A stretch of 28,690 nt of DNA, taken from positions 1 to 28,690 of IMG/VR virus record IMGVR_UViG_3300021364_000125; one strand, written 5' to 3'. Source of the DNA: a virus. This document shows, piece after piece, positions 74-145 of this stretch (positions are counted from its first letter, which is position 1; each line of letters opens with the position of its first letter). The notes beneath the pieces are model-generated. The model was not told where the DNA came from. It did not search any database and worked only from the letters and a program-made list of their open reading frames with translations. A program made the position numbers and the translations under genes.

Positions 74-145
74 ATGTGGACTAAACCAGAAGCAATTGAA
101 ATGCGTTATGGCTTTGAAGTTACAATGTATGTAATGAACAAGTAA
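74..145 (+). CDS. pqqA: PqqA-like peptide, precursor of pyrroloquinoline quinone
   Basis: A 23-residue peptide starts [17 protein letters not shown] and continues MYVMNK. Bacterial PqqA peptides are 22-24 residues, begin MWxKP, and carry the E-V-T-x-Y core whose Glu and Tyr are cross-linked by PqqE to become PQQ. Here these are Glu15 and Tyr19, the positions seen in the classical 23-residue PqqA. A strong ribosome binding site (AGGAG, 62-66) lies 7 bases upstream of the ATG, and a Rho-independent terminator follows 20 bases after the stop, so this looks like a deliberately expressed gene. No pqqB, C, D or E is in the window, so the peptide would depend on host enzymes, boosting or replacing the host's precursor supply. 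The gene is too short for ordinary gene finders. Homology by motif is clear; function during infection is inference. Confidence 0.85.
   Translation: [23 protein letters not shown]

Follow-up and report, generated by a model that had tools for sequence, protein, structure and literature searches.

Stand-alone pqqA genes in methylophages and an operator shared with host PQQ genes

Phages of different lineages carry pqqA, the gene for the precursor peptide of the cofactor PQQ, apart from the enzymes that act on the peptide, and many of these copies lie behind an operator that also precedes pqqA in Methylophilaceae. In our best reading, which we consider probable, the phage gene raises precursor dosage and is driven by the host PQQ regulon. 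The analysis centres on a window of 28,690 nt (IMG/VR record IMGVR_UViG_3300021364_000125), whose genes mark it as part of the genome of an uncultured T4-like phage.

pqqA and its surroundings in the window

The open reading frame at 74–142, with its stop codon at 143–145, encodes 23 residues and by curated cut-offs is a genuine PqqA. It scores 35.1 bits against the Pfam PqqA model PF08042 (cut-off 21.1, E = 1.3e-8) and 35.4 bits against the NCBIfam equivalog TIGR02107 (cut-off 20, E = 6.5e-9), and it contains the ExxxY pair for PqqE joining, E15 and Y19. The first-pass annotation had called it a PqqA of this length with both residues in place, flanked by a strong ribosome-binding site and a strong terminator; the two models bear out the identification, and both signals are present (Table 1). 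The terminator hairpin has a predicted stability of −18.2 kcal/mol (z = −3.8), matched by none of 200 shuffles. In profile searches, the window record gave a single PqqA match and no PqqE, and 14 control genomes gave no PqqA match. No PQQ alcohol dehydrogenase or methanol dehydrogenase was found in the 28.7 kb window, a fragment for which such an absence is not proof. An Rfam search returned no RNA family in the window and nothing credible near the pqqA of its siblings.

Table 1 Features at the left end of the window
Feature	Position	Strand	Basis
Leader element	2..49	+	Conserved in siblings; short hairpin TCGGA...TCCGA; five sequences
Ribosome-binding site AAAGGAG	60..66	+	7 nt 5′ of ATG
pqqA, 23-residue PQQ precursor peptide	74..145	+	PF08042 and TIGR02107 over cut-off; E15, Y19
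Intrinsic terminator	about 160..195	+	Stem 166–175/181–190, then T-run
Small ORF between pqqA and gp32	392..601	+	Kept in some siblings
Perfect sigma-70 consensus TTGACA-17-TATAAT 5′ of gp32	644..672	+	Sequence match
gp32-like single-strand DNA-binding protein	733..1722	+	Phage context
UvsX recombinase	1804..2871	+	Phage context

Downstream of pqqA on the same strand lie genes for gp32, UvsX, UvsW, primase and gp41 helicase. Because gp32 has a perfect sigma-70 consensus of its own, it need not rely on the pqqA promoter. The isolates nearest to the window in gp32 are jumbo phages with 48–56% identity (PA5oct-like 48%, Sinorhizobium phage Phosso 56%), and not Melnitz, the known T4-like methylophage. 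Three sibling contigs (L042, L044 and L288) and a more distant one, L348, likewise have pqqA upstream of gp32; on the other flank of pqqA, L042 has a block that includes what its sequence suggests is a terminase-like ORF of 529 aa. Adjoining gp32 and UvsX, with synteny in siblings, the gene belongs to a real phage genome. Within the contig stretches examined, pqqA was present in only 3 of the 80 relatives nearest in gp32, and it is therefore an accessory gene in this lineage.

Further along, the window holds a dense block of apparent surface-polysaccharide genes (3588–11210), with a heptose adenylyltransferase-like nucleotidyltransferase at 4224, several mutually similar uncharacterised proteins and a short stretch on the opposite strand (10003–11210).

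Spread among phages and selection on the peptide

A tblastn search of PqqA against 50,697 phage records gave 12 matches. Nine are phages of Methylophilales or Methylophilaceae and one is an uncultured podovirus; the remaining two are host operons under a wrong label. Host contamination aside, every match in this annotated collection is thus a Methylophilales phage or one uncultured phage, in keeping with the methylotroph host proposed at first pass. The two mislabelled entries, both ‘Acinetobacter phage’ (L008, L010; MD-2021a), were rejected as phage: each is a host pqqABCDE operon, a case of database contamination. They lend some colour to the view that phage pqqA copies are recent host fragments or contaminants with no phage function. 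We find that view scarcely credible, given that complete isolate genomes carry pqqA and that the phage copies have no pqqB–E neighbours; for the window locus it is refuted by the conserved position beside gp32 and UvsX in siblings.

The phages bearing pqqA belong to different lineages (Kyanoviridae, Zobellviridae and unclassified Caudoviricetes). A stand-alone copy occurs in all of the cultured OM43/LD28 phages Venkman, Melnitz, MEP301, MEP401/402 and P19250A, and pqqA appears to be a trait that these phages share; isolates MEP431–434, which may lie outside the collection, did not turn up among the carriers. In Melnitz-1 and the uncultured podovirus the spot is annotated only with an opposite-strand ORF, and in the other phage records checked it has no annotation; a metabolic gene of 72 bases has escaped annotation in all the cultured methylophages in which we found it.

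For so short a peptide, IMG/VR was searched with DNA patterns, one for the core and then one for the N terminus only; both scans set a lower bound on prevalence, and the contigs are fragments. The core pattern matched at least 120 viral contigs, and all matches listed read as PqqA-like, nearly all with 23–25 residues and a plausible ribosome-binding site. Among the matches listed for the N-terminal pattern, E15, Y19 and the length of 23 are invariant in 119 of 119 copies. Over codons 12–23 of this second set, which the pattern leaves unconditioned, dN/dS is 0.06, and the peptide is kept by selection; over the columns of the core-pattern set that are not fixed by its pattern, the value is 0.28. 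Neither the loss of E15 or Y19 in relatives nor a drift of the frame free of synonymous bias, which the first-pass annotation had named as signs against its proposal, was seen, and substitutions are mostly synonymous.

Each of 45 phage records tested has exactly one PqqA and none has PqqE over the cut-off. Across about 160 phage loci no pqqB–E was found with queries that match 21 host loci; a PqqC model search without a match is not counted, as control genomes were equally without one. An alcohol dehydrogenase of the methanol-dehydrogenase type is present in one of the 45 records checked. A role of PqqA in infection outside PQQ synthesis, as a signal or a differently modified peptide, seems unlikely to us, in that the phages lack PqqE and the sequence is held to the pattern of a PQQ substrate. 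Phage pqqA is often followed by a terminator, which lies within 100 nt 3′ of the gene in 37 of 97 cases, compared with 11 of 174 other ORFs; hairpins 5′ of the gene with z < −2 show only a modest trend (24% versus 12%).

Six phage contigs (L013, L022, L027, L033, L037 and L034) have another type of PqqA, which suggests that phages of other PQQ-using hosts also carry pqqA; those that were scored have no operator.

An operator shared with host PQQ genes

Searched with the peptide pattern, bacterial genomes returned records named Methylophilaceae or unclassified Betaproteobacteria, Nitrosomonadales and Pseudomonadota MAGs. Fourteen of 15 Methylophilaceae genomes have 2–12 copies of pqqA and a single-cell genome has one; one full PqqE passes the cut-off in 14 of the 15. 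These copy numbers match the published 3–12 copies of pqqA with one pqqBCDE set (PMC4109929). The first-pass annotation had left the remaining steps to host enzymes, and this division is supported, with pqqE in the hosts and none in the phages. PqqE in those 14 genomes and pqqBCDE in L370 and L376 place the PQQ enzymes in the cell that such phages would enter, the host of the window phage probably being, from its peptide and operator type, a Methylophilaceae methylotroph. The two commonest 23-residue peptides are the same in phages and hosts, letter for letter. A peptide encoded without enzymes could in principle act as a competitive inhibitor that occupies PqqD/PqqE and shuts down PQQ synthesis. 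This is very unlikely, as the core is identical to that of the host substrate, both reacting residues included, and so are the commonest peptides.

A motif shared by phages and hosts upstream of pqqA was first seen in k-mer counts. A 17-bp matrix built from host upstream regions alone has as its consensus the palindrome CTMATGA-TTT-TCATKAG, and at a threshold of at least 12 bits it finds an operator in 81 of 88 non-redundant host pqqA upstream regions and in 56 of 100 from phages, against a background of 0.4% in control windows taken at these loci and 0.1–0.3% in shuffles. The operator accompanies 55 of 90 peptides of the Methylophilaceae type (EMR) and 2 of 10 peptides of other types. A fixed pattern searched in 44 whole phage records gave 23 sites, compared with three for the reversed control pattern, and 20 of the 23 lie on the same strand within 250 nt 5′ of pqqA.

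Host genomes have further sites 5′ of pqqBCDE without an adjacent pqqA, in LSUCC0665 (L370) and Methylophilus methylotrophus (L376), and 5′ of a cytochrome c and a GSDH-family PQQ-type dehydrogenase (L380). In two Methylophilaceae (L378, L379) the palindrome precedes a glycine-zipper exported protein, possibly a further member of the regulon. Matches with one mismatch in LSUCC0665 (L371–L373), in or beside ordinary genes with no visible link to PQQ, were taken as chance.

A −10-like hexamer starts 44 nt after the operator in 27 of 82 host promoters; among 63 phage promoters it follows at 21–22 nt in 15 and at 43 nt in six, where about 0.6 per position is expected by chance. The computed centre of the operator relative to the transcription start is about −65 in hosts, where a second ATTCATGA half-site follows downstream, and about −42 or −64 in phages, in which the operator more often stands alone at about −42. 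Such centres are the usual positions of class I and class II activators, and the operator probably binds an activator.

As a second conserved part of the cassette, the operator also admits a decoy, in which the many phage genome copies would titrate a host regulator and pqqA would ride along with its promoter as a passenger. We hold this to be quite unlikely: purifying selection on the peptide itself is strong, pqqA has its own ribosome-binding site and often a terminator, and 44% of phage copies keep the peptide where a strong operator is missing.

The window begins 73 nt 5′ of pqqA, and its operator region lies beyond the left edge. The palindrome is seen upstream of pqqA in siblings L042, L044 and L348, and we infer that the phage of the window has it too. 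In L042, which is 93% identical to the window over 1–490, TTAATGATTTTACGTAT ends 140 nt before pqqA. A hairpin with a T-run (AATAGTGTAGTAGGAAACTGCTACACTATTTTTTTT) lies between the operator and the start of pqqA in L042, L157 and L348; it may act as an attenuator or as an upstream terminator, and it complicates a simple promoter reading in L042.

A leader 5′ of pqqA is conserved between the window and L042 (955–1012), L044 (816–868), L288 (35–87) and L348 (1970–2023). It consists of a hairpin of 5 bp, both arms of which vary among relatives, followed by CTGTTyrCATAA, and was not found 5′ of pqqA in other phages. Fold z-scores in the five sequences are weak (−0.03 to −2.1), and the hairpin was set aside as an interpretable element.

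Proposed role and earlier reports

PQQ synthesis uses up PqqA as its substrate, one peptide for each cofactor. In the mechanism that we favour, the phage therefore brings only this consumed component and leaves the chemistry to host PqqB–E, among which PqqE with PqqD joins E15 to Y19. Extra PQQ would then keep the XoxF/Mxa methanol dehydrogenases supplied with cofactor and sustain the flow of carbon and energy in the infected cell; in one OM43 isolate, xoxF was the most abundant transcript (PMC5120137). A phage could hardly raise a cofactor more cheaply than by supplying only the precursor that is consumed. Across the phage population the gene forms a cassette, in which an operator of the host type, placed where an activator would bind, precedes a −10 box, a strong ribosome-binding site and the 23 codons, often with a terminator after them; this layout suggests that the phage copy is switched on by the activator of the host’s PQQ regulon. 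We lean towards the further view that unrelated phages have converged on this one cassette, a 23-codon substrate gene behind the operator of a putative host activator in class I or class II positions, which the host would switch on. Sequence comparison shows the peptide, the selection on it, the absence of pqqE, the host enzymes and the shared operator; that PQQ levels rise through phage pqqA, and that the phage benefits, would be the expected consequences. With the shared operator, phages would plainly be reading a control circuit of their host, and the operator is a tangible starting point for tracing the PQQ regulator of abundant coastal methylotrophs.

Methylophilaceae pqqA, the closest known counterpart, resembles the gene of the window in sequence, length, E15/Y19 and the PF08042/TIGR02107 models. 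It is multicopy, often detached from pqqBCDE and placed behind the operator common to phage pqqA, whereas each phage has a single copy. The cultured OM43/LD28 phages likewise have a stand-alone pqqA; unlike the window, they come from unrelated lineages, have the gene elsewhere in the genome and are not annotated as carrying it. One paper on OM43 phages names PQQ only as a medium supplement and another does not mention it, and among openly licensed texts we found no report of the operator.

Phage-borne PqqA as such is only partly new: a 2020 study described the Lake Baikal T4-like methylophage populations VP_266/VP_139 with PqqA and methanol dehydrogenase, for which a boost to methanol oxidation was proposed (PMC7678222); for the spread and the operator no earlier report was found. 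As far as checked in openly licensed literature, what is new is pqqA in all these cultured methylophages, the evidence that it is under strong selection, its occurrence apart from the enzymes, and the host operator. Viral pqqA/D/E are listed in a 2026 sediment study (PMC13188868). The accessible part of the Baikal report describes no operator, and it gives VP_266/VP_139 a methanol dehydrogenase that the window, a 28.7 kb fragment, does not have. In the 72 kb viral record that does carry such a gene (G017, L052), the alcohol (methanol) dehydrogenase at about 34.0–35.7 kb lies some 6 kb from pqqA at about 41.9 kb.
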